Below, piece by piece: positions 4,020-53,123 of a DNA stretch of 64,000 nt. The translations under genes were made by a program, and so were the position numbers. How positions within the stretch are numbered: the stretch's first letter is position 1; each line of letters opens with the position of its first letter. This DNA is from Magnolia sinica (taxonomy: Eukaryota > Streptophyta > Magnoliopsida > Magnoliales > Magnoliaceae). The notes beneath the pieces were generated by a model, which did no database searches, was not told where the DNA came from, and saw nothing but the letters and a program-made list of their open reading frames with translations. The DNA lies in the NCBI RefSeq assembly GCF_029962835.1, contig NC_080574.1:40119501-40183500 (forward strand). Direction: 5' to 3'.

Positions 4020-6956
4020 CGGAAGATGAATAACTTGTGTTGATCACAGACCAGCTCGTAAACATGGTAGCTAGGCATAAAATAATGTCATTTATGGATG
4101 ACTATTTAGGATATAATCAAATTTATATTGTTGAGGAAGACGATCATATGATGACATTTTGTTGCCCGTGGGCAATTAGTACTTATAATTGGGTCATCAT
4201 GCATTTTGGACTAAAAAATGTTGAAGCAACATATCAAAGAGCTATAAATGTCATTTTTAACTACATAATCGACAATTTTATTAAAGTATACATCCACAAG
4301 GTAGTGGTCAAGTCGGTGGACCTTGGTGACCACATCATTCATTCAAGAAGGTCCTTCGAACGAATGAGGTCTTACATGTCAAAGATGAATCCTAGAAAAT
4401 GTGCCTTAGGAGTTTCTATTAGGAATTTTTTAGGATTCATAGTTCATCAAAGATGGATCAAAATTGAATAGAATAAAGTTATAGAGAGATCCTTAAAGCA
4501 AAACTCCTGATAAATAAAAATGAATTGTAAAGGTTTATCGGCCAAATTAACTTTCCTCGCAAATTTATCTCAAATTCGGCGAGTAAAATCAATGCCTTCT
4601 CACAAGTCAAATAAAAAGCAATGAAAGAACTTAAGTGGAAAAGGGAACATCAATAAGCCTTCAAACAAATTAATGAATATTTAATAAAGGTGTCGATGCT
4701 CATTCCCCAAAGAAGATATCACCCTTTTTGGTTATATATCTCCGCGACAGAAGATTCCATTGAAGCTTTACTTGCCCAAGAAAATGATGACCGAAGAGAA
4801 CATGTGGTCTATTACTTCTCCCGAACGCTTCATGATACCAATTAGAGGTATTCCCTAATTGAGAAACTATGCTTATCTCTCTATTTCACTACTACTAAAC
4901 TCAACCATTACCTGTTAATGGGATGGTCTATGTCATTGCGTCAATTGACTTAATTAAACACATTCTAACATGGTCAATCCTTAAAGAGAATTGGAAATTG
5001 GATTCATGCACTTTCCGAGTTCTATTTTAAGCATGTGCCACATAAGGCCTTAAAGGTTAGTCGTTGGTAAAAATTTTAGCCGACCATCCCCTAAGAATAG
5101 ACAATCAAATCCCATCGGACATTCTCGAGATCTATGTTGTCCAACCGACTCATAGAAACTAATATTCAATGGATCACAGACTAATCAATCATTTGGGGTT
5201 GATGTTGTTATAATTTCCTCATATGAGAGATGGTAAGAGTACACTTTCCAGCTATAGTTTAAGTGCGCAAATAATCAAGCAATATGTAGCTATAATTATT
5301 GGGCTCGAGATATTAATGGAGCTTACAGTGAGAACAATTGAAGTAATTGGGAATTCTCAATTGGTTATCAACTAACTAGGGAGAGTTTATAAATGTTCGA
5401 GTTGGACATTGATATTATATTATGGGGTTGTTATCTAGATGGTTCCAGAATTTAATGATATAAACTTGAAGTATGTCTCTCGAGACCTGAATGCTGATGC
5501 AAATGAGATGACACAGATAGTGGTAGGGCTTTGGCTACCTGAGAAAATGACTAAGGAAAATGACTAAGACATTACTTACAATTCAGAAGAAGTAACTCTC
5601 ATCAGTTCAATAAAGAGACATGATAGCGGAGATATCTTCCTTTGATGTTTTACAAGAGGATTAGATATTCTCAATCATTCAATATTTGATTAGGCCTGGC
5701 AAGACGGTCAATTGTTCCATTCACAGAATCACCTTGCATTACTTACTTCTTGATGATGACCTTTATTGTAAAAGTGTAGAGGACCTCCTTCTAAAATGCT
5801 TAAGAATTGAGGAAGTGATGGTTGTGATCGGAGAAGCTCATGAAGGCATTTGTGGAACTCATTAGGTGGGACAGAGATGTGTTGGCTTCTCCGTCGACAT
5901 GGCTATTATTAGTCGTTAATTTTGAAGGACTGCATGAAATATATAAAAGGATGTCAAGCATGTCATAAGCATGGTAGAGTCTAACACCTCCTAGCCGTAG
6001 AACTTCATCTAATTGTCAAAGCATGGCCATTCAGAAGAGGGGCCATTGACTTAATCAGAAAAATATTATTCCTCCTCAAATTAGCACAGCTTCATCATCG
6101 TTGCAACTAACTACTTTACCAAGTGGGTTAAAGCTCATCTGGTGAGAGCGGAAAGTCAGGTGGAGGTAATCGATTTTACAAAGGAACACATTATTCATAT
6201 ATTCGACATTCCAGAGACAATTACGTCGATAAAGGGACCAAGTTCTTAGGCAATTAGATAAAAGCATTTGCAAAGGCCTATAAATTCAAGTTTCTTAATT
6301 TGACCCCTCACTATGCTCAAGCTAATTTACAGGATGACTTGACTGAAAAAATCCAGAAGAACATGTTGAAGCGTACGACGAAAGACAATTATTGATCATG
6401 GAATAAGACTTTGTTAGAAGTTCCATGGGCCTATCAGATGTCCTAAATAACTAGTACAAGGATAAGTTTGTTAGCTTTAACATATGGGTATGATGTCGTC
6501 TTACCCATGGAAGTGAATAAACCATCTCTTAGAGTGGCATTTTAACACCAACTCACTCTACAAGAGTTCACCAAATCAATGATGATTGAATTAGAAGAGT
6601 TGAATTAGGTAAGAATGCAAGTCTTAGATTGTTTAAAAGTTCATAAAGCCAACATATCCAAGGTCTATAACAAGAAGGTAAAAGGGAAGTCCTTCAACAA
6701 ATGAATGCTAGTTTGGAAAATCATCATTCCCATTAGAGCTAAGGATCCAAAGTATGAAAAATGGTCCCCAACATAAGAGGGATTGTTTTTAATGAAAAAT
6801 GTGTTACGAGGAGGTGCTTATCTATTACAGGACCTTGATGGTTGTGAAAGTAAGATGACCATTAATGACAATTATTTAAAAAGATGTCCCTACCCTTTGG
6901 GAGACCATGCAAAGAAAAATTAATATGGATGAAACACGTGTCGAATAAGTTAAAGA
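4020..6956 (+). pseudogene. Decayed Tat/Ogre-lineage Ty3/gypsy pol
   Basis: The reverse transcriptase remnant is an open frame at 4037-4471. It retains FMDDYLGYNQI, a HFGLKNVEATYQRA block and a C-terminal FLGFIVHQRWI block. The catalytic YVDD-like motif reads YIHK (4289-4300), so the enzyme is dead. Downstream, in several frames broken by stops, I can read an RNase H core (about 4715-4920), a second RNase H block containing SQLVIN and NADANEM motifs (about 5270-5560), and integrase core pieces including NYFTKWVKAH (about 5690-6900). The second RNase H after the first is the hallmark of the Tat lineage. No frame is continuous. The copia element at 6957 interrupts the region just beyond the integrase. 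Confidence 0.8.
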
Positions 6957-12150: not shown

Positions 12151-13796
12151 GCTTGAGTTAATCACTTCATTTTTAGGGTACTTGTATTTGTTTTGTGTTA
12201 CCCACTTGGTAACAACTTTCTTTGAGCCAGAAGAATTTTTCTTAGAGTGACTTCCAGATGATTTGGATATATCTTTAAGGTTTATCTTGGAAGTGAAATG
12301 AGGATTTTTGGATATAGGACATTCCCATTTGTAATGTCTTATCTTTCCACAATGATGACATGATAATTCGACTGAATTTTTCTAGTTTGGAACAGTTGAA
12401 TTTGTCATTTCTGATGAAGTAGAGGAAGAGTTGGATTTATCTGATTCATATCCTAGGCATTTCATATTTTTAGAGTTTCTTCCCATGCCTAGTAGTTTTT
12501 CAAAATTTTCATTGTTTTGAGTGAATTTACGATTTAGTTCAGCTGTACGATTAGAATTTTTTTTACTTCTAGTTTCAGATTTTTATTTCTCTTTTTAATT
12601 TCTCAATTTTTAGTTCTAGAAGCTCAATTTTTTTGAAAGTATTATCGAAGGTAATACTTCTCACGGTTGATCCTCTTCCGTTTTAAATTCTCTCAAGATC
12701 AAGTTCATCTTCCTCTTCTAACTCCTTAGAAATGACTGTAGTGGTGAAGGCCATAAGTATTTTTAATGACTTTTGGTCTCCATCACTTTCTGACTCGCTT
12801 GATTCTAAGTTTGAGTCATCAATGTCATCCTATGTGGCTACCATAGCTTTTCCTTGAGATTTCTTTATGGGACATTCCATGGAAATGTGATCATATTTTC
12901 AACAGTTGTAACATTGGAGCTCTTTAGACTTGTTGAAGGTTTTCCCTGTTTGACGTTTGCAATCCAATTGAATTCCTTTGTTATTGTATGGTTTCCCATG
13001 GTTCCTGTTAAAGAATCTTTTGAATTTTTTAGCTAGGAGTGCAACCTCTTCATCTCCATCTTTGTTCTCACTATCTTCTTCCTCTATTGTAGTTATGTTT
13101 TTAGAGGTTTTGAGAACATTATTTTTGGATTTTGTGGGAGTTTTAAGATGTAGTTCAAATGTTGCTAAGGAACCTACTAGTTATTCTACTTTCAACTCAT
13201 CAATATTCCTACATTCTTCAATGGTGGTGACCTTAGAGTTAAACCGTTCCGGTAGTGATCTTAGAATTTTTTTTTATACATATTTTTGGTACAAGAACTG
13301 TCTCTCTTAATCCACCCATGGAGTTGCACATGATATTAAGTTTTGCAACGAAGTCCATAAAGGTCTCGTCTTCCTCCATTTTCAAGTGTTCAAACTGAGT
13401 TGTCAAGAACTGCGACCTTGATCTCTTTACTGTGTTGGTTCCTTCATGCGTGGTTTCCAATAAATCCCATGCTTCTTTTGAGGTTTTACTCATACTGATC
13501 TGATTGAATACCTCTTCAGAAACTGCACAGTAAATGACATTCATGGCTTTTACTTCATTTGTCTTATTTTCTTTATCAAAAGCTATCCATTTTCCTTTTG
13601 GTTTGGGTTGGGTGATGGTTGTGCCGTTTTTCAATACAACATGTTCAGTTGGTAGCACATTTCCATTCTCAACAATTTTCCAAACACCGTGATTTAAGAA
13701 TTGTAGAAAATAAAACATTCTTGCATTCTAGTAAGTATAAATTGAGCCATTGAAAATCGGAGGATTAGAGATTGATGTTTCCTCTCCTTTAGCCAT
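12150..13796 (-). pseudogene. Ty1/copia gag, broken
   Basis: The ATG at 13796 starts MAKGEETSISNPPIFNGS, followed by a stop where the family has Trp (YTY-stop-NARM). The best open piece, 13718-13239, has the copia gag core: a KGKWIAFD block, VSEEVFNQISMSKTSKEAWD and FEHLKMEEDETFMDF. It continues after a frameshift into ERFNSKVTTIEECRNIDEL. Two CX2CX4HX4C zinc knuckles follow: one at about 12912-12862, whose glycine codon has become a stop, and one at about 12366-12309 (CHHCGKIRHYKWEC). Gag would coat and package the element RNA. Reading ends near 12150 without entering pol. Confidence 0.8.
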
Positions 13797-29178: not shown

Positions 29179-29995
29179 TTAATTTTGGATATCCACATAT
29201 AGACATGTACTAGGTTTAATCATGTATGTAGGTTAATTCACACACACGCACTTTTTGTGATGATATAATCATTTAGATACAACTTGCTCCATAAGATTTA
29301 TGTGAATATGAATTTTAATATGCCCAATGTAGCTGTGAACGCCCTCTCCTTGATGTGCGTGCGTGTAGTGTTGGATATGCGACACGGTGGAAGATTGCCT
29401 TTCACCGAATGGTGTTTTCGTTATAATGTGAGGTTGATCTTTTTGGGGTTATGACGACTCTATGTATATGTAACGCCCCGCGTTTTCGAAACCAGAGTAT
29501 ATGACTCATTTTCCAAAAACCTGAGTGTTAACCTTTAAAGACAGCCAAATTCCATATGCATTTTTTTCTTTTATTTTTCAGAGTGAGCATTTAGGCAAAA
29601 TATGAACAAATCAAGTATATAGGGAATTGTATATATATTCAAATTATAAGAGCGGCTGCCCAAAATGACTTATACAAACCAATGTCTCGATGTTAATAAA
29701 TATAAGAATTATAAGATTCAACACATAAGAATATATAAAATGTATATAAACTTGAGCTGCAGCATCACACGACTTCTCTTGGTAATTACAGTCATCCATC
29801 CTTGACAATTATATCATGCTCCTCATCAATTTAAACATGAATATCATTTAAACCACCTGCATTACCTGTACGGTTATATATTCGATGAATGAGTGGTCAA
29901 CTCAGTGTGAATTCCTCTCAAGATTACACATCGTCGCATTAGTTAAGCATAATTTTTAAACAATAAAACATACAAAATGTTTTAGTTGGCCAAGT

Positions 29996-30679
29996 GAATG
30001 GACCTTTCAAACAGTCAGTCCATTCATGCAAGAGAATGACCCTTTCAAACAGTCAGTTCATTCAACTTGCATAGTAGTGGGCCTTTCAAACAGTTGTCTC
30101 ACTTATACATGAATAAGCCTTTCAAACAGTCAGCTCATTCATGCCTGGGGATGGGCGTTTTAAATAGTTAACTCATCCCTAATAGGGGAATGAACCTTTC
30201 AAATAGTTAGTCCATTCAGGTAAGAGAATGAGTCTTTCAAATAGTCGACTCATTCAGCTTACAAAGGAACATGTCTTTCAAACAGTCGACCCGCTCAAGT
30301 AAGATAGTGGGCCTTTCAAATAGTCAGCTTACTTAAGTAAAGAATGAGCCTTTCAAACAGTCAGCTCATTCAAGCAATAGGATGGGTCTTTTAAACAGTT
30401 AACCCCCTTTTTAATAAGAGAATGAACCTTTCAAATAGTTGGTCTATTAAGCAAGAGAATGGGCCTTTCAAACAATCAGCTCATTCAAATTGTAAGGGAA
30501 CGAGTCTTTCAAACAGTTGACTCGCTCAAGTAAGATAGTAGGCCTTTCAAACAGTCGGCTCACTTAAGCAATGAATGGGCCTTTCAAACAGTCAGCTCAT
30601 TCATGCTTGGGGATGGGCCTTTCAAACAATCGGCTCATCCTTAATAAGAGAATGGACCTTTCAAATAGTCAGTCCATTC
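29996..30679. repeat. Array of about 18 hairpin units of about 38 bp
   Basis: Each unit has the form stem - CTTTCAAACAGTC(A) - inverted stem. Perfect stems include GAATGGAC/GTCCATTC (29996 and the last unit), GAATGAGTC/GACTCATTC (about 30224) and GAATGAGC/GCTCATTC (about 30344). Near-perfect ones include GGATGGGCC/GGCTCATCC (about 30610) and GAACGAGTC/GACTCGCTC (about 30489). The loop is nearly constant while stems differ between units. The same motif in inverse orientation recurs at 52575-52745. Confidence 0.9.
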
Positions 30680-31025
30680 AAAATGCACGTACCATGAATG
30701 CATGATTAATTCCAGCCATTATTATTCCAATTTATAAACAACCGATTTAGGAAAGCTCAAAGGTCACTATGGGGGGCTCGTCACCCAGCATAGGCCGACA
30801 GCTCGGGCATAGTGTCCCATTCCACTATTCTCGGCTCATGAGACTCTATCATTAGGATGTTTAATGACATCCTCCTCAACCAGTGGCTAATCAAAGTCTA
30901 ACAAATGAGACTTGCTATCGCATGGTCACACAAAATAATACATCAAGCTGCCTTGGGCAAAATATGCAATAATCAGGGCCGCAAGGGGCAAATATCAATT
31001 AGAAAATAATCCATGGATGGTAAGT

Positions 31026-32339
31026 TGATTGCTTGCCTCCAAGTGCAGAGGTTCGTAAATAGTATCCCGTGAATACAGGGTCGATCCCATAGGGAGATGA
31101 ATTGTGAGAAGAAAAAAATCAAATGCAAAACAAACTAAGTAATAAAAATTAATCTGATGATTTGATTTTAAGATTTTTGAATGGATGTAATTTAACTGAA
31201 TAAAATAACGCTTAAGCTTCAAAGTTCCACACATAAGTTAATGTTCCAAAATCATGATGACTTGGATAACACAACTAGGATCTGAGCACTATGGTCAGCC
31301 TAATCAGAAAATAAAACAGTTTAAATATTTTAATAAATGATATAAAAGATTAGAAAATAATGGATTTGCACCATTGACATATATTCTCAAGCGCCAGTGA
31401 TTTTAAGTATTCAATATCTATAGGATAATGAATATCAAAGAAATATAACAGGTTGAAAACCTCTCCTATCTAGGAAATCTGATTGATCTAGGGTAAGCCT
31501 ATCCATCAATGTGGATCTCATATGATGGAAACATATGGATCTTACAAGAGGATAAAAAATAAAACCTAAATAATAGATAACATGCATACACCATTCTTCT
31601 CATCATTAAAACAATCAATCATCATAATCTTAAAAAATTATTACACCCATGTGCTTCCCTTCTAGCTTGGGCTAGAAGGAAGCTAGAAGAAACTTATAAA
31701 AACATAATTAAATTACAGAAATAAAAAGCAACAAGAAAGAAAGAAGAAGAAAATGCAAATAGAAAAGATCTAAAATAAAAAAACAACTTATAAAGATTTA
31801 ATAAAACTAAAAACTCTTTAAAAACCTTAAATATTTCTCTTGAATACTTCTAATGATGTTTAAGAATGCCCTAGGAAGCCCTATTTATAAGTAGGGAACT
31901 TCAATTTTCGTACAAAGTTGAAAAACCCTAGAAAACGCCTCAAATATACGTATTTTTCCAAAATAGACTTCTCACTGCATAGTTCATTTAAAACAGACTT
32001 CCTGCTGCGCAGTTTTCCAAAATATACTTCAAAGCTTTAGAATACACTTTTCAAGACAATTTTAGGATTCTTCACTTCAAATCTTTGATTCTTTTCATTC
32101 CTCACTTGGTTTTCTTAGATCTTTGGCATGTGAATTCTTCAATCTTGATCTCCTAAGATCCATCCCTTGCCTTGGTGATTGTTGAGCATCAAATCCATGC
32201 TTTTTAGCACCCTTTTTCAATCCAAGCTCTTAAATTCACCTTGTAATACATACATGAGTAAATTAGAATATTAAGCTGATTTATGTTCATAAAACCAAGA
32301 TGTAAATGGGAAAAATTATGTAATATTTGAGTCTCAACA
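31026..32339 (-). repeat. 3' LTR of the Athila element
   Basis: 1314 bp. The minus-strand TATA box (CTTATAAATAG) is at about 31892-31881. Just upstream of it on that strand, at about 31965-32045, two to three units related to ACTGCGCAGCAGGAAGTC occur. Confidence 0.9.
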
Positions 32340-32349
32340 CACCCCTCAA
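32340..32349 (-). other. Polypurine tract of the Athila element
   Basis: On the minus strand TTGAGGGGTG directly precedes the LTR start TGTTGAGAC. Confidence 0.7.
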
Positions 32350-33685
32350 CCAGCATTTTGCTAGTCCCGAGCAAAATAGGCAAAGAAAAATAAAAATAAG
32401 AATAAAAATTAATTCTAGAAATAAAATTAAAACGAAAATAAAATTCTAACTACACCACTTTCGCAAGTAATCTTGATTGCATTTAGCAAATGCAACAAGC
32501 CTTTAAACCCCTAGGTTTCCCCTAGTGGACGAGTTATAGTCTCGTGAGGGTTTACAGAAATGTTACCCACAAACATTGAAAACATAAAAAACAGTTCAAC
32601 ACTCAGAAATTTATACAATTATGCCTCCATTCATCATATGAATTCCAAAACAAAAAAATACTTAGTCTAAGTCTGAAGTTAGTTAGAATCTCAATTTTCT
32701 AATCCATTACATCCTTGAGTTCAGAAACCTAATCAAAATTTAGAATATTTATGATTCAATATACTTAGGTGCTCCGTGACACTAGTCTAACTTTGAAAAA
32801 TATGCATATTCCCTATCCTAATTCCTTTCAATCATCCCAAGAATATGAAATCTCTAGTTATCTCATTTTTTTCATGACATTTCTTCTTTTATCATCATAT
32901 CCTTATTATTATAGACCATCCTTAGATGAAGATTCCCACTGGGTTTGCTTCATAACCTAAGGTATCGTACTTGTAATGATAACAGTAATGGATACTTAGG
33001 TATCCTTACTCCAGATTACTAACACGATTGTTATGGTCATTGCATTCATGCTCTATAATAAAAATTTCTTTTTTCCATCACTCTTTTTTTCCTTCAATAT
33101 TTTCTCTTTTAAACATATATCAATGGTACTAGTTCATTCAACCTTATTTGAATCAAAAGTTGTTATTCTAGTTCACATATCATATTCCTCACTTAGTTAG
33201 CTAGGGTGTATTGTGAATTCAGTACATCAAATTACAACTCACTTTAAACTAGTGATTAGATAATTGTACTCAAGTCTATAATTTTCAGTTATCAGATTTC
33301 TGACTACTATCAACCTAGACTAGGTATTAACTTTGCCTTTGAAATTCGTAAAATATCATGTTCACATTCTTGTATATAAAAATATTAATTTGAAAATGTT
33401 GAAATTTTTTTTCCATAAACCTAAAAAAAATAAACTTAAACCTAACTGAAACCTAAAAATAATAAAATAAACTAAAACTCAAAAAAAAACCTTCACATGG
33501 ATGACTATCCACACCCCCCAACCTAAAATCTATATTGTCATTAATGTAATGATAATGTAATGCAGAGAACAAAAAAATAAAAGAAAGGGTGGATAACCTA
33601 CCATAAAAAACTCACCTGCTATGTGACACTAAAAAAATTGAATATGATACAAATCCTACACAAATGCTTCGTCAGACCAGGAGTA
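32350..33685. other. Athila 3' noncoding region
   Basis: 1.3 kb of AT-rich sequence between integrase and polypurine tract. Some Athila elements have an env-like ORF here; I see none. The 33410-33490 part is dominated by AAACCTAAA-like words. Confidence 0.5.
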
Positions 33686-34735
33686 TCAATCTGAATATTC
33701 TGGCTCATGAAGAGGGAAGGACTCCTCTCCCAAATGAAAGTTTTCCACATAAGGCTTCAATCTCTGACCATTAACCTTGTACACATTGCCGTTACGTGGA
33801 TTCTCAATTTCAACGACCCCACGAGTATAAACATTCTTCACAATGAAGGGGCCTGTCCATCTTGATCTTAACTTTCCCGGAAAGAACTGGAGACGAGAAT
33901 TGTACAATAGGACCTTTTGCTGAGGTTCAAAAATCTTCCTAAGGATATTTTTGTCATGAAAAGCTTTGGTCTTCTCTTTGTAGATTTTAGAATTTTCATA
34001 GGAATCTGTCCTCAGCTCCTCTAATTCATTCAACTCTAATTTCCTTTATCCACTTGCTTGATCCATATCAAAGTTTAATTCCTTTATTGCCCAGTAGGCT
34101 CTATATTCCAATTCTACAGGCAAGTGGCAAGCCTTCCCATACACCAATCTGTATGGAGACATTCCAATCGGGGTCTTATAAGCAGTCCTATAAGCCTATA
34201 AAGCGTCGGATAGTCTGAGGGACCAATCCTTCCTATCTGGCCTTATAGTTTTCTCTAAAATGTGTTTGATTTCCTGATTAGAAATCTCAGCTTGTCCACT
34301 CATTTGTGGGTGGTATGGGGTGCTCACTTTATGCTTGATGTCATATTTCTTCATCAAAGCCTCAAATGTCCTATTGCAAAAGTGAGACCCACCATCACTA
34401 ATGATGGCCTTTGGAGTTCCAAATCTAGAAAATATATTTTCCTTGAGGAACCGTATGACCACTTTGTTGTCATTGGTCCTACTTAAAACTGCCTTGATCC
34501 ACTTTGAAACATAGTCCACACCAACCAATATATAAAGAAATCCAAAAGAAGATGGAAATGGGCCCATAAAATTAATACCCCAACAATCAAAAATCTCCAA
34601 TGGTAAAATTAGGGATAAAGGCATCATGTTGCGCCGGGACACTCTTCCCAACCTTTGATATCTATCACAAGCAACACAGAAAGCATGAGTGTCTTTAAAC
34701 ATGGTGGGCCAGTAAAAACCACACTACAAGATTTT
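33686..34735 (-). pseudogene. Athila integrase
   Basis: The zinc-binding HHCC module spans the junction with the upstream piece: HMEACGGH lies in the preceding frame and CVACDRYQ is near the start of the 34702 open piece. The catalytic triad is visible: D in [12 protein letters not shown] in [10 protein letters not shown], and E in [10 protein letters not shown]-terminal domain (34033-33686) has the SRWTGPFIV and VNGQRLKPY blocks, the usual end of Athila pol. Stops break it at 34724, 34196 and 34046. The protein would insert the cDNA into the host genome. Confidence 0.88.
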
Positions 34736-36880
34736 TGTAGTGGTTTTCTTAACAGAAAAATGGCCACCACATGCTTCCATGTGACAAAAAGAAATAACAC
34801 TCTGAACTTCATCCTCTAGGACACAATGTCTAAAAATCTGATCAGTCCCATATTTATATAAATACGGATCATCCCAGAAGAAGTTCCTAACCTCGGTTTC
34901 AAAACGATTCCTATCTTGTGACTTCCAATGATATGCCATTTTTCTCATTACAAGATAGTTCACTATATCCGCATACCAAGGTAATTTGAAGATCACAAAT
35001 AATTGTTCATCAGGGAAAGTGTCCTGGATATGCATCTCCTCAGTGGAATCATCTAATACCAATTTAGAAAGGTGATCGGCTACTACATTTTCTACTCCTT
35101 GCTTATCTTTTGTCTCTAAGTCAAATTCTTGGAGTAGGAGGATCCATCTCAAAAGTCTTGGCTTTGCATCCTTCTTAGATAACAAATATTTCAAAGCCAA
35201 GTGGTCCGTGAAAATGACCACTTTGGATCCCAACAAGTAGGACATAAACTTATCCAAAGCAAAAACTACTGTAAGTAACTCTTTTTCAGCTGTCGAGTAG
35301 TTCACTTGAGCCGAGTTTAGAGTTCTACTTGCATAGTGAATAACGTAGAGCCGTTTATCTTTCCTTTGGCCCAAAACAGCCCCTATGGCATAATCACTTG
35401 CATCGTACATTAGTTCAAAAGGAAATGTCTAATCTGGTGGACGCATGATAGGTGCAGTGGTAATGGATGATTTAATTTTATTAAAGGCACTTGCACACTC
35501 ATCTGTCCACTTAAATGAAACATCATTTTGAAGAAGATTACTCAAGGGTCTAGTAATGGCACTAAAGTCTTTGATGAATCTTCTATAAAAATCAGCATGC
35601 CCTATAAGTGATCTAATATCTCTAACAGTTCGGGGGATAGGTAGATTAGCTATAATGTCAAGTTTTGAGTGATCTATCTCGATTCCATTTTTGGAGATAA
35701 CATGGCCTAAAACAATTCCCTTTTGAACTTAGACAAGACAAGAGATAAATTGTTGAGGCATTCCTCAAAACTACTCCCAAATACAGAGAAGTCGTTCATG
35801 AAAACCTCAAGAAATTTTCCAACCATATTTGAAAAAATACTTAACATACACCGTTGGAAAGTTGATGGGGCGTTACACAATCCAAATGTCATCCGTTTTG
35901 AAAGCAAACGTTCCAAATGGATAAGTGAATGTGGTTTTCTCTTGGTCTTCTAGGGTTATCTCTATTTGGTTATATCTGGAATATCCATCAAGAAAACTAT
36001 AAAAGGAGTGACCTACTACCCTCTCTAAAACTTGATCAATGAATGGTAGAGAAAAATGGTCCTTCTTTGTGACCTAGTTCAATTTTCTATAGTCAATGCA
36101 AACACGCCAACCAGTGGTGACACGTGTTGGTATGAGTTCATTATTAGAATTCTGCATAATAGTGATTCTGGATTTCTTTGGGACTACTTGAGTTGGACTC
36201 ACCCAAACACTATCGGATATTGGGTAGATGATTCCCACATCCAACAATTTGATCACCTCATTTTTTATAACTTCCATCATGTTTGGATTGAGACACCTTT
36301 GAGGTTGTCTAATTGGTTTGGCATCCTCATCGAGGTGGATCCGATGGGTGCATATGGAAGGGCTTATACCTTTGATGTCAGAAATGGTCCAGCTCAAGGC
36401 TCCTTTGTGGTCCCTTAGAACTTTCAACAATTTAATCTCTTGATCCTTCTCTAAAAATGAAGAGATCACCACAGGATAAGTTTTATTTTCACCTAAGTAC
36501 ACATACTTAAACTCATTTGGTAGTGGTTTTAAATCAAGCTTTAGAACATTGGTTGGTGATGACAGAGGTCGCCAGTCCTCGATAGATAGGATTTGAGTGC
36601 ACGGTCTCCATTGGTACATACCAATGTCCTAGGTGGTAGTGCTCTCATTATCATCAGAAATTTCAGCAAACACTTTTTCTAAATCAAAATTTTTCAAGTC
36701 TCCAATGACTTGAATCAATTCCTCAGTCAGACTAGGTTCTAATTCCTCTTCTTCTATCAAGTAGTCCATGAAATTCAGCTCATGGATCTCATTATTATCA
36801 ATGGGCTGCTTACATAGATTGAAAATATTTAGCTCTAGAGTCATGTTACCAAAAGACAAGTTCATCATTCCATCCTGCAA
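34736..36880 (-). pseudogene. Athila reverse transcriptase and RNase H
   Basis: The RT N-terminal part is at 36619-36074, ending WRVCIDYRKLN followed by a stop. The core resumes at about 36040-35707 with LDGYSRYNQI, FGLCNAPSTFQRCM and the catalytic motif, which reads FMND instead of FMDD (codon at 35794-35796, AAC for an expected Asp codon). RNase H (35410-34736) shows [34 protein letters not shown] and [10 protein letters not shown], followed by the connection to integrase ([10 protein letters not shown]). A stop at 35429 separates RT from RNase H. The piece at 36880-36629 is the linker from protease. Confidence 0.88.
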
Positions 36881-37094
36881 TTTATGATTGTATTTGAAGT
36901 TGCTAGGAATGGGCGGCCTAAAATGATGGGAACTTAAGCGCTAGCATTTACATATGGTTCAGTGTCTAGTACAATAAAATCCACGGGGAAGTAGAATTTC
37001 TCCACTTGGACTAGCACGTCCTTTAAAATTCCCCTTGGTACCTTAATAGAGCGGTCAACGAGTTGGAGTGTAATCGTGGTTGGTTTAAGCTCGC

Positions 37095-37418
37095 CTAACC
37101 CATTTGTTTGTAAACCGAATAAGGTACTAAGTTGACACTTGCACCCAAATCTAGCAAAGCATGCTTAATTTGAAAATTTCCAATAATACAAGGAATAGTG
37201 GGACTTCCCGGGTCTTTGTATTTGGGTAAAACTTTTTGTTGAATGATAGTGCTCACTTTCTCAGTAAGGAAGGCCTTTTTGTACACATTTAATTTCCTCT
37301 TTACAGTGCACAAGTCCTTGAGATATTTAGCATATGATGGAATTTGTCTAATGGCATCAAGCAGAGGAATATTGACAGTAACCTTTTGGAGCACATCCAA
37401 CACCTCTTGATATTTCAT
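37095..37418 (-). pseudogene. Athila aspartic protease
   Basis: It contains [20 protein letters not shown] followed by [18 protein letters not shown] is the Athila form of the catalytic D(T/S)G motif. It would process the Gag-Pol polyprotein. It lies between the gag tail and RT in the usual order, in a piece that stays open to 37095. Confidence 0.85.
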
Positions 37419-37493
37419 GGGGACAGTCGGATTCCGAAGTCTAGATGGGAATGGAACTGGAGGCTCATATGACTTAGTCTCTTTATCCTTTTG

Positions 37494-39194
37494 CTATTGC
37501 GGCTCTTGAACCATAGCCGGTTCATCATTTTCTTGAGACAGTGGCTCATCCTCCAGTATTTCTACCTGTTGCATTATCTTGTTATCGACCTCTTTTCCAC
37601 TTCTTAAGATAGTGATGGCCTTAGCTTGTTCATGATGTAGCTCACTTGGATTTGAGTCTCCAATGAAATGTGTGTTTCGAGGGTTTGACGCAGGTTGAGA
37701 AGGAAGTGTGCCTTTTTCCCTAACATTTAGTTGAGTCTCAATCCTAGCCACAACTGTCTTTAATTCCTGATTTGATTGGATTAGAGATTGATTCATTTGA
37801 GCTTGAGAGTTCATGAATGTGGTCAATGTATCCTCCACAGATGATCGCTTTGGCGGGGGCACATATGGTGCATTGTTAAGTGCCCCAAAGAAGTTGTTTT
37901 GTGGAGGCATTTGAGGTGCATTAATTTATGGTCCATTCCTCCAATTAAGATTAGGATAGCTACACCAATTTGGATTATACGTGTTTCCCATTGGTTGCAT
38001 AACTGACCTTTGGTAATTATTTATATCATTTGCTTGATCATGCTCATGCGTGATATTTTGTACAATTGAGATTATTGGACAATCCTTTGTGTCATGGTTT
38101 GTACCACCACAAATGCTACAAAAATTACCTAAGAAAGTGTTTACTTTAACCATATCAACCATCCTAATTTTCAAGGCTTTGACCTTTCTAGCCAATGTAG
38201 CGAATTTTGTATTAAGGTCGTCTTCCTCTCTTAGGACCTACATTGCCGCTTTCTCTCTAGGAATGGGTCTAGTTTGGTCTGATTTAGCAGAGACATGTCA
38301 TGTCTGCGTATTCTCTGTTAACATATCTAAAAAATTCCAAGCCTCATTATGATCTTTGTCAAGAAAGGTTCCACCACACATCATCTCTATGAACTGACGG
38401 GTATCCATGGTGAGCCCCTTTCGAAAAGCATCAATCACGTGCCATGGTTTATAACCATGATGTGGACAAGTAATTAGAATGTCTTTGAAGCGCTCCTAAG
38501 CTTGAAAAAATAGTTCATTCCCCTTTTGGGAGAATGACATGATTTCTTGTTTTAGTTCATTTGTTTTGTGTTTGGGAAAGAACTTTTTTAAAAACTCTAT
38601 ACTTAAGGCTTGCCATGAAGTGATGGTATTAGGTCTTAGAGAGTTGAGCCATGCTTTGGCCTGATCCTTTAGAGAAAATAAGAATAACCTAAGCTTAAGT
38701 ACATCCCTATTGCCATTTTTTACTTGTAACGTTGCAATTACTTCCTCAAAGTCCTTGAGGTGCAAGTAGGGGCTTTCAGAATCTAAGCCATGAAATTTAG
38801 GAATCAATTGAATCACACCTGGTTTAAAATCAATGTTCCTTGTGTGAGCAGGGAACACTATGCAAGATGGTAAAGTTGATCTTTCAGGGTGTAGATGTTC
38901 ACGTAAAGTCCGTGGTTGGTTTAACACATTCCTATGAACTTCATTTTCATCCTCAAGAGGAGGATTAGGTTGATTTTCTCTATTTTGATTTATAATTGGA
39001 TCTGGCAGATTTGGATTTGGATTATCAACTGGGTCTGCTATGGAATCCAAGTGATGTTGAGTGCCTCTTCTAAGTGAATGATCAAGGCCTGGAACTAGTT
39101 CGCCTTTGGAGAAGAGTCGATTGTTTTGATTCCTACTTCGACGGGACACAAACCATCCACACCACACAACAAATACCACTAATTCAAATAGCAA
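37494..39194 (-). pseudogene. Athila gag
   Basis: The N-terminal and core piece (39194-38496) has the Athila gag signature: LREHLHPE, IQLIPKFHGLDSESPYLHLK, FSLKDQAKAWLNSL and FLKKFFPKHKTNELKQEI. A zinc knuckle CSICGGTNHDTKDC lies in 38195-37926. The tail (37910-37494) has KRSSVEDTLTTFMNSQ, a glutamine-rich helix and an ITILRSGKEVD block that precedes protease. Stops at 38496, 38238, 37926 and 37494 break it. The start at 39194 may be internal; sequence upstream is not recognisably coding. Confidence 0.85.
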
Positions 39195-39230
39195 GTATGA
39201 TACTTAAAATAAAAATAAAAACTTAACCAA

Positions 39231-39462
39231 CAACCCAGGCGGCAGGGCCAACCATGAGGGTTCAATCCACAAAGCAAAATAAATCAACAACCTAGGTGGC
39301 AGGGCCGACCATGAGGGTTCAGTCCACAAAGTAAAAATAAATCAACAACCCAGGTGGTAGGGTTGACCATGAGGGTTCAGTCCACAAAGCAAAAATAAAT
39401 CAATAACCCAGGTGGCAGGGCCGACCATGAGGGTTCAATCCATAATAAATAAATAAATAAAT
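39231..39462. repeat. Four tandem repeats of 57-58 bp in the Athila leader
   Basis: The key words CCCAGG(T/C)GG and GACCATGAGGGTTCA recur at 39234, 39291, 39349 and 39407, each followed by AAAGCAAAAATAAATCAA. It is followed by an (AAAT)n run. It lies between gag and the primer site, in the untranslated leader. Confidence 0.85.
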
Positions 39463-39740
39463 AAAAGTAAAAATAATGCAGAAATTAAACTATGCTAATC
39501 TGGAAAATAGATTCAGCAGATGATCTTTGTGATCAAACAGCAACTGTAGGACAACCATAGCACTTGGGTGATAAAATCCCAAGCAGGGCAACCTTATGTC
39601 ATAGTTAGTGCTTGAAAGACCCAACTGAATTTATTTTCAAAAAAAAAAAAGAGAAAAAAAAAATCTACAGGAAATTTGGAGGGTTTAGAAGAGAACTTAC
39701 CTTAGCTATCTTGCACAGATCTAATCTATCTCAGTCTCTC

Positions 39741-39760
39741 TCCGGCAACGGTGCCAAAAA
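39741..39760 (-). other. Primer-binding site of the Athila element
   Basis: On the minus strand this reads TTTTTGGCACCGTTGCCGGA, two bases from the LTR. It differs at one position from the Athila consensus TTTTTGGCGCCGTTGCCGG. Confidence 0.85.
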
Positions 39761-39762
39761 CT

Positions 39763-41055
39763 TGATTGCTTGCCTCCAAGTGCAGAGGTTCGTAAGTAGT
39801 ATCCCGTGAATACAGGGTCGATCCCACAGGGAGATGAATTGTGAGAAGAAAAAATCAAATGCAAAACAAACTAAGTAATAAAAATTAATCTGATGATTTG
39901 ATTTTGGAATTTTTGAATGGATGTAATTCAATTGAATAAAATAACACCCAAGCTTCAAAGTTCCACACATAAGTTAATGTTCCAAAATCATGATGACTTG
40001 GATAACACAACTAGGATCTGAGCACTATGGTCAGCCTAATCGAAAAATAAAATAGTTTAAATATTTTAATAAATGATATAAAATATTAGAAAATAATGGA
40101 TTTGCACCATTGACATATATTCTCAAGCGCCAGTGATTTTAAGTATTCAATATCTATAGGATAATGAATATCAAAGAAATATAACAGGTTGAGAACCTCT
40201 CATATCTAGGAAATCTGATTGATCTAGGGTAAGCCTATCCATCAATGTGAATCTCATATGATGGAAACATATGGATCTTACAAGAGGATAAAAAACAAAA
40301 CCTAAATAATAAATAACATGCATACACCATTCTTCTCATCATTAAAACAATCAATCATCATAATCTTAAAAAATTATTAAACCCATGTGCTTCCCTTCTA
40401 GCTTGGGCTAGAAGGAAGCTAGAAGGAACTTAGAAAAACATAATTAAATTACAGAAATAAAAAACAACAAGAAAGAAAGAAGAAAAAAATGCAAATAGAA
40501 AAGATCTAAAATAAAAAAAATAACTAATAAAGCTTTAATAAAACTACAAACTCTTTAAAAACCTTAAATATTGCTCTTGAATGCTTCTAATGATGTTTAA
40601 CAATGCCCTAGGAAGCCCTATTTATAAGTAAGGAATTCCAATTTTCGTACAAAGTTGAAAAAAATATATGTATTTTCCCAAAATAGACTTCTCGCTGCAT
40701 AGTTCATTTAAAACAGACTTCCTGCTGCGCAGTTTTCCAAAATATACTTCAGAGCTTTAGAATACACTTTTCAGGACGATTTCAGGATTCTTCACTTCAA
40801 ATCTTCGATTCTTTTCATTCCTCACTTGGTTTTCTTGGATCTTTGGCATGTGAATTCTTCAATCTTGGTCTCCTAAGATCCACCCCTTGCCTTGGTGATT
40901 CTTGAGCATCAAATCCATACTTTTTAGCACCATTTTTCAATCCAAGCTCTTAAATTCACCTTGTAACACATACATGAGTAAATTAGAATATTAAGCTGAT
41001 TCATGTTCATAAAACTAAGATGTAAATGGGAAAATGCAATATTTGAGTCTCAACA
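39763..41055 (-). repeat. 5' LTR of the Athila element
   Basis: 1293 bp. The minus-strand TATA box is at about 40628-40619 (TTATAAATAG). It matches the 3' LTR closely by eye apart from a roughly 20-base deletion near 40650 and scattered substitutions. Confidence 0.9.
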
Positions 41056-44000
41056 TAAGCCCATATCAATGTTTTATTTAATTCATCAATCAAAGTAGCC
41101 ACAGGTGAGGGTCCATTACAATCACAATCAGTTAAGTTACATTCCAAGTCTGGATGTACATATATAAATGAGGTTTTTCCACTAATAGATATTGCAGTTC
41201 AAGTTTCACAAGCAATTCACAAACAATCCACAAACTGAAAGATGCACAAGTACAACATATGGATATTCATATGAACTGAGTGTTGAGCATATGATTGATA
41301 ATTAGATTCAATATCTAACACAAGTTATCATGAATTAGAGATATCAATTATCAGTTGAAATAAAATGAACTATTACTCAAACTAACATGGAAGATGAAAG
41401 CTCAAGGGGAAAGATTCATCACCTTATGTTTTGAACCATCTATAAATGTTGCTAGGAGGGTGAGTTGATGTGGCAACTAAATGTGGCCAGCTCGTGCAGT
41501 TGCACTTGAAATGAACTGACAGTTGAGTCAACTCCACTCACAATTATACCTGCTTCTCTATTTTTCTCTTTTTCTTTCCTTCCTTCTCTTTCCTTTTCTT
41601 CACTCTCTCACTCTTTCTCTTCTCCAACTTCACTCAACCAAAGCAATTAGCAACATAGCCCAAACATTGAGCCCAACTCAGATCGGGACTCATTGACTAG
41701 CTGAGTTAACTGGGCAGCTTGAAGCTTGAAGGGACCCCTTAACTCTTCTCTTCTTCTATCTATTTCCCGCTGGAACTCCAGTCATGCCTGGGCAAGCCCA
41801 AGCCTGACTCGACCCAACTGGACTCGATGGATTTCAATAGAGTTGACTCAGCAGCAACTTACGATTCAATCTCTCTCTCTCTCTCTCTCCTTCATTTCTC
41901 CTTCCCGCTTCTCCCTTTTCTCTTTCTTTTTTAAAGTCCAGCAACGCCTGTCTCAAACAGAGCTTGACCCAATTGGCACAAACTCGGCAACACTTGGGTT
42001 AGTAAGTCGATGAACTTGAACCGCCCGAACCAAGTTTGAAACTCGCCAGCAATATGACAATCACACACACTCTCTCTCTTTCTCTTTGCCCTATCTCTCT
42101 TTTTGTTGAAAGTCCAGCAACATTGCTAGATGTGATCAAGGTTGCCCAACACAACAAGTTGGCCCCAGACTCCATGGCCAGCATGCACATTTGGCTGAGG
42201 TAGACCAGGTCGGAACTTGACTCGGTTTGCCCAGCAGCAAGACTCACAACTCTCTCTTCTCTCACAATCTCCTCCTTCCTTTATTCTTCTACTTTCTTCC
42301 TACTGGAAACATCCAACAATGAAGGCCAAGCCTAGCCTGACTTGACCCAAACTCAGCTTGGTTTGACCTGGTGCAACAGCACACCTGATCCCTCCTTTCA
42401 CTCTCTTTCTTGATCTTCTCTATCTCTTTTCTTCTCTCACTGAATCCTCCTTCTTCCTTTTGAGACATCCAGGAGGATCTGGACTCGAGCAAACTCAACC
42501 CACAACCTGGACTCAACAGCGAGTTAGGCCGTGACTCGGTGTGGCACCTCATTGCACTCAACGTGAGTGCAACCCATCCTCCACATCTCTTCCTTTCTTC
42601 TCCTCCTGAACGTGTCTAGCAAGGTCTTGACGAGGCCAGACACAAATCGAAACAATCTGCACCCGAACAGACTCGACCCAGTCGACATCTCGCAGTGGAG
42701 AAGAAGAGTGCCGTTAATGACAGACTCTCTCTCATTGCTTCTTTCTCCCATCTACCAGTGTTAGATGGTTCGTATGGGTGTCGTGGAGCTTGGAGGATGG
42801 ATGGATCGAAGCTTCATAATGGTTTTCTTGGTGGGTTCGAATGAAGAAGATGGCGACTGTTTTTCTCAAGCAGCCGTAAGGGATGAGGGAAGACATGATG
42901 CCATGCGATCCTTCCTCATTTTAAGTATACCTTAGCCTATCCTAGAGCCGTTGGATGAGGAAAATCACAGTTAGGATTCAGTCTAGGGTTTTCTACTCTC
43001 TCTCTCTCTCTCCACAAAAATATTATGTCGCTCGGTTGAATAGCTGGCAATAGCACAAGCTATTTTCAGCGGTTAGGATTGACCCTCATGGACAACTATG
43101 ATCACACGAAGGTGGCTCTCAAGGATCGCCAGCTTGGCAATAAGGACAATTTACATTTTTGGAAGGATCCAATGCACATACCCTCACTTGCACCGAAGTT
43201 TGTGGGCACTCATGTGTGTCTCATTGAGCAGGATAACCCAAGTTTTGGTCAACTCTACCTGCTGGATCAGATAGACGGTTCGAATCTTTGAGATGGGTGG
43301 TCTTGGTGGGCCACCGATCAAGGCTTTAAACGATTGTCTGATCCCTGGTGGAAAAAAAATGAAGGAAAGAAGGAGAGATTCCTTCCTTTGCTGGAATGCA
43401 CGGGTCAAACTCATTTGACTGTGCTAGCTAGTTTGGTGCACACCGGGTGCACCACACCCTAGTGTACACACACTATAGGTGTGGGGCCTGCCGGAATGTG
43501 TTTCAAAACTCACACCGTTCATTCGGTTCTCGGGGTCCAATTAGGACATTGTACCAAAGATCAAGTAGATCCACAACTTAGGTTGGCCATACCAACTAAA
43601 TTATAGCCTATACACATTGATTTCTATTGATCTAAGAGTCAGATTGTCATAATGTCAAAAATAATGGTCTAAAGGAGTCCTACTCTCCTCTAGAGGGATA
43701 TCAGCAATGCATTTCGTATTTTTGATGGTCCAGATTAGCCTTCAAACCTACTTCAATACTAGGAGTCCATTGATGATCATAATAATGACTAGGACCATCC
43801 AGGTGGCATTTACTATATTTTTCTTATTATTAAAATATCGTTGGCAATGTTATTGTTAATATTCTTATTATGATAATTATTTTATTTACATATTTATTTT
43901 ACCATGCACTGAATGATCAAGTCATTAGCAACTAATTTATATTTATTTATACTCAATAAATGACTATCATGTCCCATGGTCTCATGGTTAGTATTGCAAT

Positions 44001-48440: not shown

Positions 48441-48474
48441 CCTTCAATATGATCTTTTTTTTTTGGGAATGTAT

Positions 48475-49840
48475 GAGGCCCACCTTGGTATATACATAAG
48501 GCCCATTTGAGGAGGTTCACCTTTGAGGTGTTTATGGCCCATCTATGAGGCCCACCTTTGATGTGTTTGTGGCTCATCCGTCAGGCCCACTTTGATATAC
48601 TTGTGGCCCATTAGTGCGGCCCATTGATGCAGCCCACTTGTTGTATATGAGGCCCATCGGTACGGCCCAATGATGTAACCCATCGTGATGTGTATGTTAT
48701 ACAGGCCGTTCTTTGGCTGGACCACTGGTAGGCCCAACTGTGATGTGTGGGCCCACTTGCTACATGTGCAAGGCCCACCTCTGATGAATATTTGAGGCCC
48801 ACCTATTGGCTATTTAAGGCCCACTTGTTGGATTTTTGAGGCCCACCTGTTATGTATTTTCGGCCCATATGGCATGGCCATTGTAATGTTTTGCAACCCA
48901 TTTAACGAGGCCCATTATGATGTGCATTGGGCCCATGGGTTGTGGTCATGCGATGTATCTGAGGCCCATGTGCAGGGCCCACTTGTTGTGTATATATCCT
49001 TTGTATGAGGCCTAATGCGATGTACATTAGACCTTTGTGTAAGGCTATGGGCCCGCTTTATGTTTGACTCTATATGGGCCATTGCTTGAGAGCAATGTTG
49101 ATTGAATATTCACATTGATGGGCAATGACGGTTAGATGTCCTCATTGTAACCTCCCCTTAGGCCTTGTTAGGCCCCATTCGCCATAGACAGATGGCTCCA
49201 TGCTATCGGATTGATATAACCACGGCCGAGAGCCGATCTTTACATTATTGTTGATTAGTTGTCCATCTATGGACCCCGCCTTGTTTATATATGTTGATTA
49301 TCGGTACCGATTATTGAGGCCGATCCCGAGTGTCGATTCCGAGTATTGAGGCCGATTAGTCATCAAGGTCGACTATCATGACCGATTGCCCATTTTTGAT
49401 TATAGAGATTGATTGTCGATTCCAATCCCCATTGTCGAGGCCAATTGTTGAGGCCCAATGAGATGTATATGCGGCCCGTATTTGAGGACTGTTGTGATGT
49501 GCATTTAGGCTGTGTTTAAGGCCTAATATGATGTATATGAGGCCTATGCGATGAGGCCCATTGGGATGCATTTGAGGACTAGGCTATGGAGCCCATTATG
49601 ATGTATGTTAGGCCCATGAGAAAGGCCCATTGTGATGTATTCATGGCCCACGATGCATGGCCCATTTGATGTATTCGAGACCTACGTGTAGGGCCCACAT
49701 GTCATGTATTTGAGGCCCATGAGCAGGGCCCACCTGTTGTGTATATGTGGCCCTTGAGTAAGGCCCACTGTGTTGTATATCAGGCCTTTGTGTGAGGTCA
49801 TGGATCCTCTATATGTTAGGATCTATGTGGGCCATTCCTT
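48475..49840. repeat. Degenerate GGCCCA / TGATGTAT array
   Basis: Alternating GAGGCCCA(C/T) and TGATGTAT(A/T) words recur every 25-35 bases for nearly 1.4 kb. A sub-block at 49200-49450 instead repeats GAGGCCGATT and TGTCGA. Spacing is irregular, so it is not a simple satellite. A more decayed version, in reverse orientation, is visible at about 58280-59050 in the 56971-61326 copy. Confidence 0.7.
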
Positions 49841-52473: not shown

Positions 52474-53123
52474 ATTGCCCACCAGTTGTCAAGGCTTATT
52501 AAATGGTTGTTTACAAATTAGACTAATAAAGGTTGGATAAATTATGCATTCATAGAACATGGGTGTTATTAGGTGCCGGATTGACTATTTGAAAGGCCAA
52601 TGTACCGTTTGAACAACCCTTTTGAGCTGCATCAATTGTTTGAAAGACCAAGTCTTTTATTTGCGAGTATAAGTCGACTATTTGAAAGACCCATCCCCTT
52701 TGCATTTGAATGGACTGACTGTTTGACAGGTCCATTGTTGGTTCAACCGGATGTGCATCCCTAAATGGAAGAACATGTGCCTGAACCTATGCATTTAAAT
52801 AATATACATTGTAAACCACAACTATTTTGTATATTTCCTTCAAGACTATACTTGATTAATATGTCAACCGTGTAATCTTAATAGGACTTATCACTGAGTT
52901 AGCCACTCATCATCATTTGTATGTGCAATTACACCTAACCGTAAAGGTATCGCAGGGTTGTTCGTGCCGATGTTGAACCCTGGGAGGCCCTGTTAGGAGT
53001 TTGGGGGAGTTCACTGCCGTGGAGCATGGCTGTAGCAGCCAAGCTCGGTTTCACGAGTAGTTTTATTTTATATGCCTCTTGCGTTTTCCATATTTGTAGA
53101 TTTGGACATTGTGGGTGATTTGG
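52474..53123 (+). repeat. Inverted relative of the 29800-30800 LTR region
   Basis: Read against the reverse complement of the 5 kb solo LTR, this segment shares ATGCATTCAT followed by GACTATTTGAAAGG, then CTGAGTTAGCCACTCATCATC and CGTAAAGGTATCGCAGGG. It keeps only about four of the hairpin units (52575-52745). It is a fragment of a related LTR on the opposite strand. Confidence 0.65.

Follow-up and report, generated by a model that had tools for sequence, protein, structure and literature searches.

The array of 18 hairpins at positions 29996-30679 of the window (the whole stretch of 64,000 bases of Magnolia sinica DNA analysed here) belongs to an old family of retrotransposons. It is located in their long terminal repeat (LTR), of which it is an exchangeable module, with the minus strand of the window as the sense strand. 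The LTR context had been missed by the first-pass annotation. Across the genome, the loop of the units is nearly constant, and the stems of the unit types differ by changes that are matched on both arms at five of the nine pairs. We favour, with modest confidence, the reading that the array was a cis-regulatory, enhancer-like module of the U3 region, which was read as a hairpin-capable palindrome in the era when the family was active.

The array and its retrotransposon context

The positions of the array and of the LTR that carries it are as follows.

29996-30679, minus strand (sense strand): hairpin array of 18 units, in the probable U3 of the LTR, about three rounds of a six-unit higher-order repeat
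29874-29880, minus strand: TATATAA, likely TATA box, conserved, about 115 bases downstream (sense) of the array
29469-29850, minus strand: putative R-U5 part of the LTR, about 380 bases, placed on the basis of the likely TATA box and the end of the LTR
29469-31025, minus strand: LTR part left of the nested insertion, with its 3' end (..GGGGCGTTACA on the minus strand) at 29469, a sharp boundary in other copies
30694-31006, minus strand: LTR stretch upstream (sense) of the array, conserved in other copies
About 31026-41055: nested retrotransposon that splits the array-bearing LTR; its two LTRs are 94.2% identical, and it has RNase H, integrase and gag domains
41056-41457, minus strand: the same LTR resumed after the nested retrotransposon, matched in 29 of the 29 other loci fetched with the right LTR part

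Each unit consists of a 9-base arm, a 12-base loop, a second 9-base arm and a linker of 6-11 bases, and the units in the window follow each other at a spacing of 36-41 bases. The about 18 hairpins with a constant loop described by the first-pass annotation were all present, the loop being TTTCAAACAGTC with variants. Tandem Repeats Finder gave periods of 38, 77, 116 and 231 bases in the array, and about six unit types appear in a recurring order (nine arrays were displayed, of which one or two were irregular). Because of the periods of up to 231 bases and this recurring order, the units must be regarded as related in blocks of about six and not as 18 independent cases.

Watson-Crick pairs are formed at 123 of the 162 arm positions of the 18 window units. 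When the 3' arms were re-dealt among these units, which is the comparison with shuffled arms that the annotation had called for, the mean was 98.4 pairs and the maximum 118, and none of the 20000 shuffles reached 123. The poor pairing pointed out near 30265 and 30380 was also found, with 6/9 pairs in the unit at 30267 and 4/9 in the unit at 30380. At 52574-52738 on the minus strand, the window holds a decayed fragment of this array, four units long. In a search of the window against Rfam at the gathering threshold, no match was obtained within the array, and the sole match in the window was snoR71 elsewhere; a free-standing RNA gene was rejected for lack of an Rfam match in the array and in view of the LTR context.

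The other copies in the genome share sequence with the window on both sides of the array and start abruptly at the position that corresponds to 29469. The LTR 3' end is directly joined, in five fetched copies (L033, L041, L060, L078 and L087), to GCTCTGATACCAAC or a close variant, which corresponds in complement to the initiator tRNA-Met primer-binding site common in plants; the loose pattern used for the primer-binding site also matched L056 and L073, at positions away from the LTR end. A general junction pattern gave 609 matches with 0 in the control, although it also catches other LTR families (e.g., L091), and a family-specific pattern, which includes the last six primer-site bases and was allowed at most three mismatches, gave 43 places, again with 0 in the control. 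The six primer-site bases were intact in 19 of the 27 junction places for which letters were shown, and at least 8 of the 43 places recur in the 100 matches listed for the longer primer-site pattern.

In the one LTR pair that was examined, L041 and L036 have the same orientation, are about 4.2 kb apart and are 86.7% identical over 2.02 kb. The primer site follows the first LTR of the pair, and other DNA follows the second. The LTR of the family is longer than 2.0 kb. The primer-binding site at the LTR end and the L041/L036 pair indicate that the array lies within an LTR of more than 2.0 kb with the minus strand as the sense strand, and on the same grounds other kinds of transposon were set aside. 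The L041/L036 element is old, and its internal DNA amounts to at most about 2.2 kb. No sense-strand open frame longer than 84 aa was found in about 1.5 kb of internal flank of each of L033, L041 and L060. L091, which was considered as a source of the internal region, seems to belong to a different LTR family, and none of its sense-strand open frames exceeds 73 aa. An exact search for 5-base target-site duplications gave 7 matches in 33 rows (31 loci), compared with 2-3 expected by chance according to our estimate, where some of the matches lie inside conserved LTR and the 5' LTR end was not reached. Some of the 29 matches to the resumed LTR part stop before 41457, beyond which most copies are too variable to follow.

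At every position of TATATAA, the majority letter is shared by 90% or more of the aligned copies (up to 56), and this motif is likely the promoter of the family. Because the conserved TATATAA lies downstream of the array, its position suggests that the array belongs to U3, above the core promoter. The sequence TTTATAAAT, which is upstream (sense) of the array and would put the array in the transcribed leader if it were the TATA box, was rejected, as four of its nine bases are less than 80% conserved. Two further TATA-like stretches downstream, at about 29750 and about 29640, are less conserved than TATATAA, and the array would still remain in U3 if either of them were the TATA box.

Among the 30 loci obtained with the left LTR part as the query, the array was present in 13 other loci and the window and absent in 15, L058 being too short to be scored. 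In contrast, all 30 loci obtained with the right LTR part, the window included, hold at least some of the array; therefore, the array-free share depends on the query. Since many LTR copies exist without it (15/30 left-part loci, 0/30 right-part loci), the array is not essential. The middle of 14 of the 15 array-free copies (all except L048) is occupied by an alternative stretch of about 250-325 bases, which is alike among these copies and gave no BLAST match with the array at 1e-10 in the 14 copies. In the tree of 28 left LTR parts, the 15 array-free copies and the 13 copies with the array are interleaved, and the tree is poorly resolved, with 5 of its 25 inner branches well supported. The array-free copies L039, L044-L046, L048-L057 and L060 share a module of about 285 bases with ACGTG-type motifs, and this module may be a separate regulatory one.

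Changes in the loop and the stem across the genome

The exact 13-base loop occurs 1600 times in the searched genome of 1.84 Gb in 127 contigs, compared with 21 times for the reversed pattern, and this large number of loops within a single genome supports a covariation test across copies. The 97 listed loop matches on contig C1 correspond to 36 places, as counted from the listing, and extrapolation from this contig gives some 590 places genome-wide. The units came from the window and 90 fetched loci, some of which overlap; overlapping loci were de-duplicated by identical 135-base context. This set gave 754 loop matches, and the 661 within arrays were used. Of these, 591 units were typed by their linkers alone into 14 classes, whose 14 seeds were hand-chosen from the displayed arrays. 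Selecting the units by their loop introduces little bias, because a search of the one-unit gaps for missed units gave only 4 further units.

The majority loop is identical in 13 of the 14 linker-defined classes and is one base off in the remaining class, in agreement with the constancy noted in the window. The substitutions A>G and T>C in the loop amount to 1.2% and 0.9%, respectively, compared with 3.9% and 3.6% in the LTR flanks, so that the A and T letters of the loop change about one third as often as those in the flanks. The substitution C>T is as common in the loop as in the flanks (16.6%).

The 661 array units have a mean of 6.32 Watson-Crick pairs out of 9, compared with 5.32 for shuffled arms, with a maximum of 5.43 in 200 shuffles. 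In the slide control with the 591 typed units, the in-register pairing was 72.1%, compared with 13.7-32.9% when one arm was shifted by 1-3 bases. The majority arms of the 14 classes are reduced to 10 distinct arm pairs, in which 73 of the 90 positions are paired, compared with 59.1 for re-dealt arms and a maximum of 70 in 20000 shuffles, a figure that is not a true probability because the unit types are related. Changes on both sides were found between the types at pairs 1, 2, 3, 6 and 7, where pair 0 is at the base of the stem and pair 8 is next to the loop, and the covariation test across the 661 units shows none at pairs 4, 5 and 8. The stem covariation claimed in the first-pass annotation thus stands, beyond what re-dealt arms give, for the former five pairs and fails for the latter three. 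The central pair 5 has 257 Watson-Crick pairs compared with 276 expected and is G.T in 304 of the 661 units, and pair 8 is C.A in 300 of the 661. Changes of G>A are common at pair 5 irrespective of the partner (T or C), and the restoring changes at this pair show no sign of selection.

Within the types, 88 paired double changes were observed, compared with 48.8 for shuffled arms and a maximum of 68 in 1000 shuffles. The within-type excess partly reflects the mixing of sub-types, as several of the largest contributions look like sub-types inside a class. One-sided changes that leave no Watson-Crick pair number 771 and those that leave one 161, and there are 31 unpaired double changes; the decay of dead copies dominates within the types. 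Chance does not account for the matched changes between the types. These changes, however, separate a few old types that recur in a similar order in most of the nine arrays, and hence few independent events lie behind the hundreds of units.

Extension of the stem into the linkers shows no general excess of pairing (2.79 compared with 2.94 in 30 shuffles). The linker pairing is above average in classes 1 and 2, with values of 3.94 and 4.27, respectively, and in 300 sampled units, the own 3' linker folds better than swapped linkers by 0.4 kcal/mol.

The z value of the RNA fold was −7.06 for the sense strand and −5.89 for the antisense strand (20 shuffles each), and the fold energy of single units was −6.27 kcal/mol for the former, compared with −6.03 kcal/mol for the latter. 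Selection on the sense RNA predicts that mispairs giving G.U on the sense strand, which are A.C on the plus strand, are more frequent than the reverse. In the comparison matched for methylation context, 224 A.C mispairs were counted against 179 G.T mispairs, and the locus-bootstrap ratio was 1.04-1.49. Among the cells of class by pair, 41 were for this expectation, 27 against it and 15 tied, and the outer pairs 0 and 1 lean in the opposite direction. The LTR flanks show no strand bias in the CHH context (12.4% compared with 12.2%). The strand preference of the mispairs is weak and mixed.

Function and origin of the array

According to the reading favoured here, the array would be the U3 module of a long (more than 2.0 kb) LTR retrotransposon, placed about 115 bases upstream of the likely TATA box, and may have served the active family as a multi-copy, enhancer-like cis-regulatory element. 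The recognised unit would be the hairpin-capable palindrome, in which the loop is read by its sequence and the stem must pair, with its letters fairly free. Tandem duplication may have made the six or so unit types, and during their divergence the loop would have been kept and stem changes retained as matched pairs; the present-day copies in the genome would mostly be decaying. We infer the promoter role of TATATAA, the enhancer role of the array and selection on folding over duplex symmetry alike. The LTR identity, the U3 position, the constant loop, the covarying stems, the RNA fold z values of both strands, the module swap and the precedent of the Sireviruses argue for this cis-regulatory hairpin reading. 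The absence of covariation at pair 5, the dispensability of the array, the flank-level C>T in the loop, the few independent events that about ten related types can give, the weak strand signal and the failure to recover a 5' LTR end, proteins or a target-site duplication of the element argue against it.

The comparison with known systems gives both likenesses and differences. The BII boxes of Tnt1 are few in number, whereas the array holds 18 hairpin units. Titles ascribed to Vernhettes in 1998 and Araujo in 2001 reportedly define the Tnt1/Retrolyc1 subfamilies by different U3 regulatory regions, and, as far as such titles go, the array copies are similar in that they differ by an exchangeable U3 module. 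The tandem repeats of plant LTR retrotransposons that seed satellites are described in untranslated regions. Like the satellite-seeding repeats (PMC7004042), the array is a tandem array inside an LTR element; it differs from them by its palindromic units and its location in U3.

The RM (repeated palindromic motif) boxes of Sireviruses (Ty1/copia) are palindromic, number at least 8 per element when those outside the LTR are counted, lie mostly upstream of the TATA box and are considered regulatory (PMC2829016). They are 10-20 bases long, have few bases in between and, apart from Tnd-1, hold a CGG-CCG core (Table 3), and they are described as absent from other copia elements (PMC2829016). The array likewise has at least 8 palindromic copies in the LTR upstream of the presumed TATA box. 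Unlike the RM boxes, it has a 12-base constant loop between the 9-base arms, covarying unit types and a six-unit order, and CGG/CCG occurs in the majority arms of only 1 of the 14 classes (class 4, GAACGGGTC/GACCCGCTC) and is absent in the other 13. The array thus cannot be filed as a Sirevirus box; it probably works like the Sirevirus and Tnt1 boxes, which it resembles in location and symmetry. The symmetry of the palindrome clusters known from plant LTRs may serve either DNA binding or folding, and a fixed loop with stems that covary across types separates these two ideas and allows a covariation test across copies. In the parts of the literature available on hairpins or covariation in LTR tandem repeats and on Magnolia, no description of the array was found.

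The symmetry of the units would also be obtained if the arms were two half-sites for a dimeric DNA-binding factor in a U3 enhancer, where the symmetry of the duplex and not the folding is selected, as in ordinary palindromic enhancer boxes. The array shares its U3 position with the Sirevirus boxes and with the BII boxes of Tnt1, which bind defence-induced factors (PMC3316501), and the module swap among the LTR copies is consistent with such an enhancer. However, half-site recognition would conserve the arms and free the spacer, whereas it is the half-sites that vary between the classes and the 12-base spacer that is most constant, and we consider this explanation unlikely. Action at the RNA level is rather doubtful, whether the hairpins, as part of the U3 of the 3' LTR that ends the genomic transcript, would serve in packaging, stability or 3'-end formation, or would be a template for small RNAs that the host uses. 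A constant loop with covarying stems is a classic RNA signature, and the sense strand is the lower in fold energy. Palindromes in the LTRs of maize Sireviruses are reported to be small-RNA hotspots by small-RNA mapping, in a 2016 study as cited in PMC10760457 and PMC5311732; they resemble the array in being palindrome clusters of the LTR regulatory region that are predicted to fold. Against the RNA explanation, the array-free copies spread too, the mispairs favour G.U on the sense strand weakly and inconsistently, and the G.T that is frequent at pair 5 (304/661) is an A.C mismatch in the sense RNA.

The matched changes may also be ascribed to a mutational process with no structural selection, in which imperfect palindromes are corrected by template switching within the hairpin in the course of reverse transcription or replication. 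This process can explain the matched double changes between types at 5 of the 9 pairs and the excess of double changes within types; however, correction of whole arms should erase the mismatches that persist at pair 5 (G.T, 304/661) and pair 8 (C.A, 300/661), and it leaves the constant loop unexplained, so that it too is judged improbable. Even less credit is given to the already disfavoured explanation without structural constraint, in which a few early palindromic units drifted and were then multiplied, the pairing being simply inherited. The six-unit higher-order repeat in many copies, the location of the clear double changes between old types and the dominance of decay within types are what such inheritance would leave. 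It does not agree with the fact that the types differ on both sides of five pairs, to an extent not reached with re-dealt arms, or with the different evolution of the loop and the stem. A further reading is offered tentatively, namely that the array is a swappable promoter-proximal module of structure-selected hairpins, which are read by their shape, as RNA or extruded DNA, rather than by the stem sequence; it could also be a handle for small-RNA silencing by the host.

Nested element and other features of the window

The flanks of the nested retrotransposon at 31026-41055 suggest a short target duplication. The snoR71 match (a plant C/D snoRNA), which is above the gathering score, is located at 38452-38558 on the plus strand and partly overlaps the open frame with the gag domain that the nested element has on the opposite strand. 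Four copies of a 58-base tandem repeat are found at 39212-39442, beside the same gag open frame. Elsewhere in the window, a reverse transcriptase remnant is located at 4034-4468 on the plus strand and a copia-type gag remnant at 13242-13727 on the minus strand, and several GGCCCA-rich tandem repeats of 22-44 bases occupy 48474-49786.
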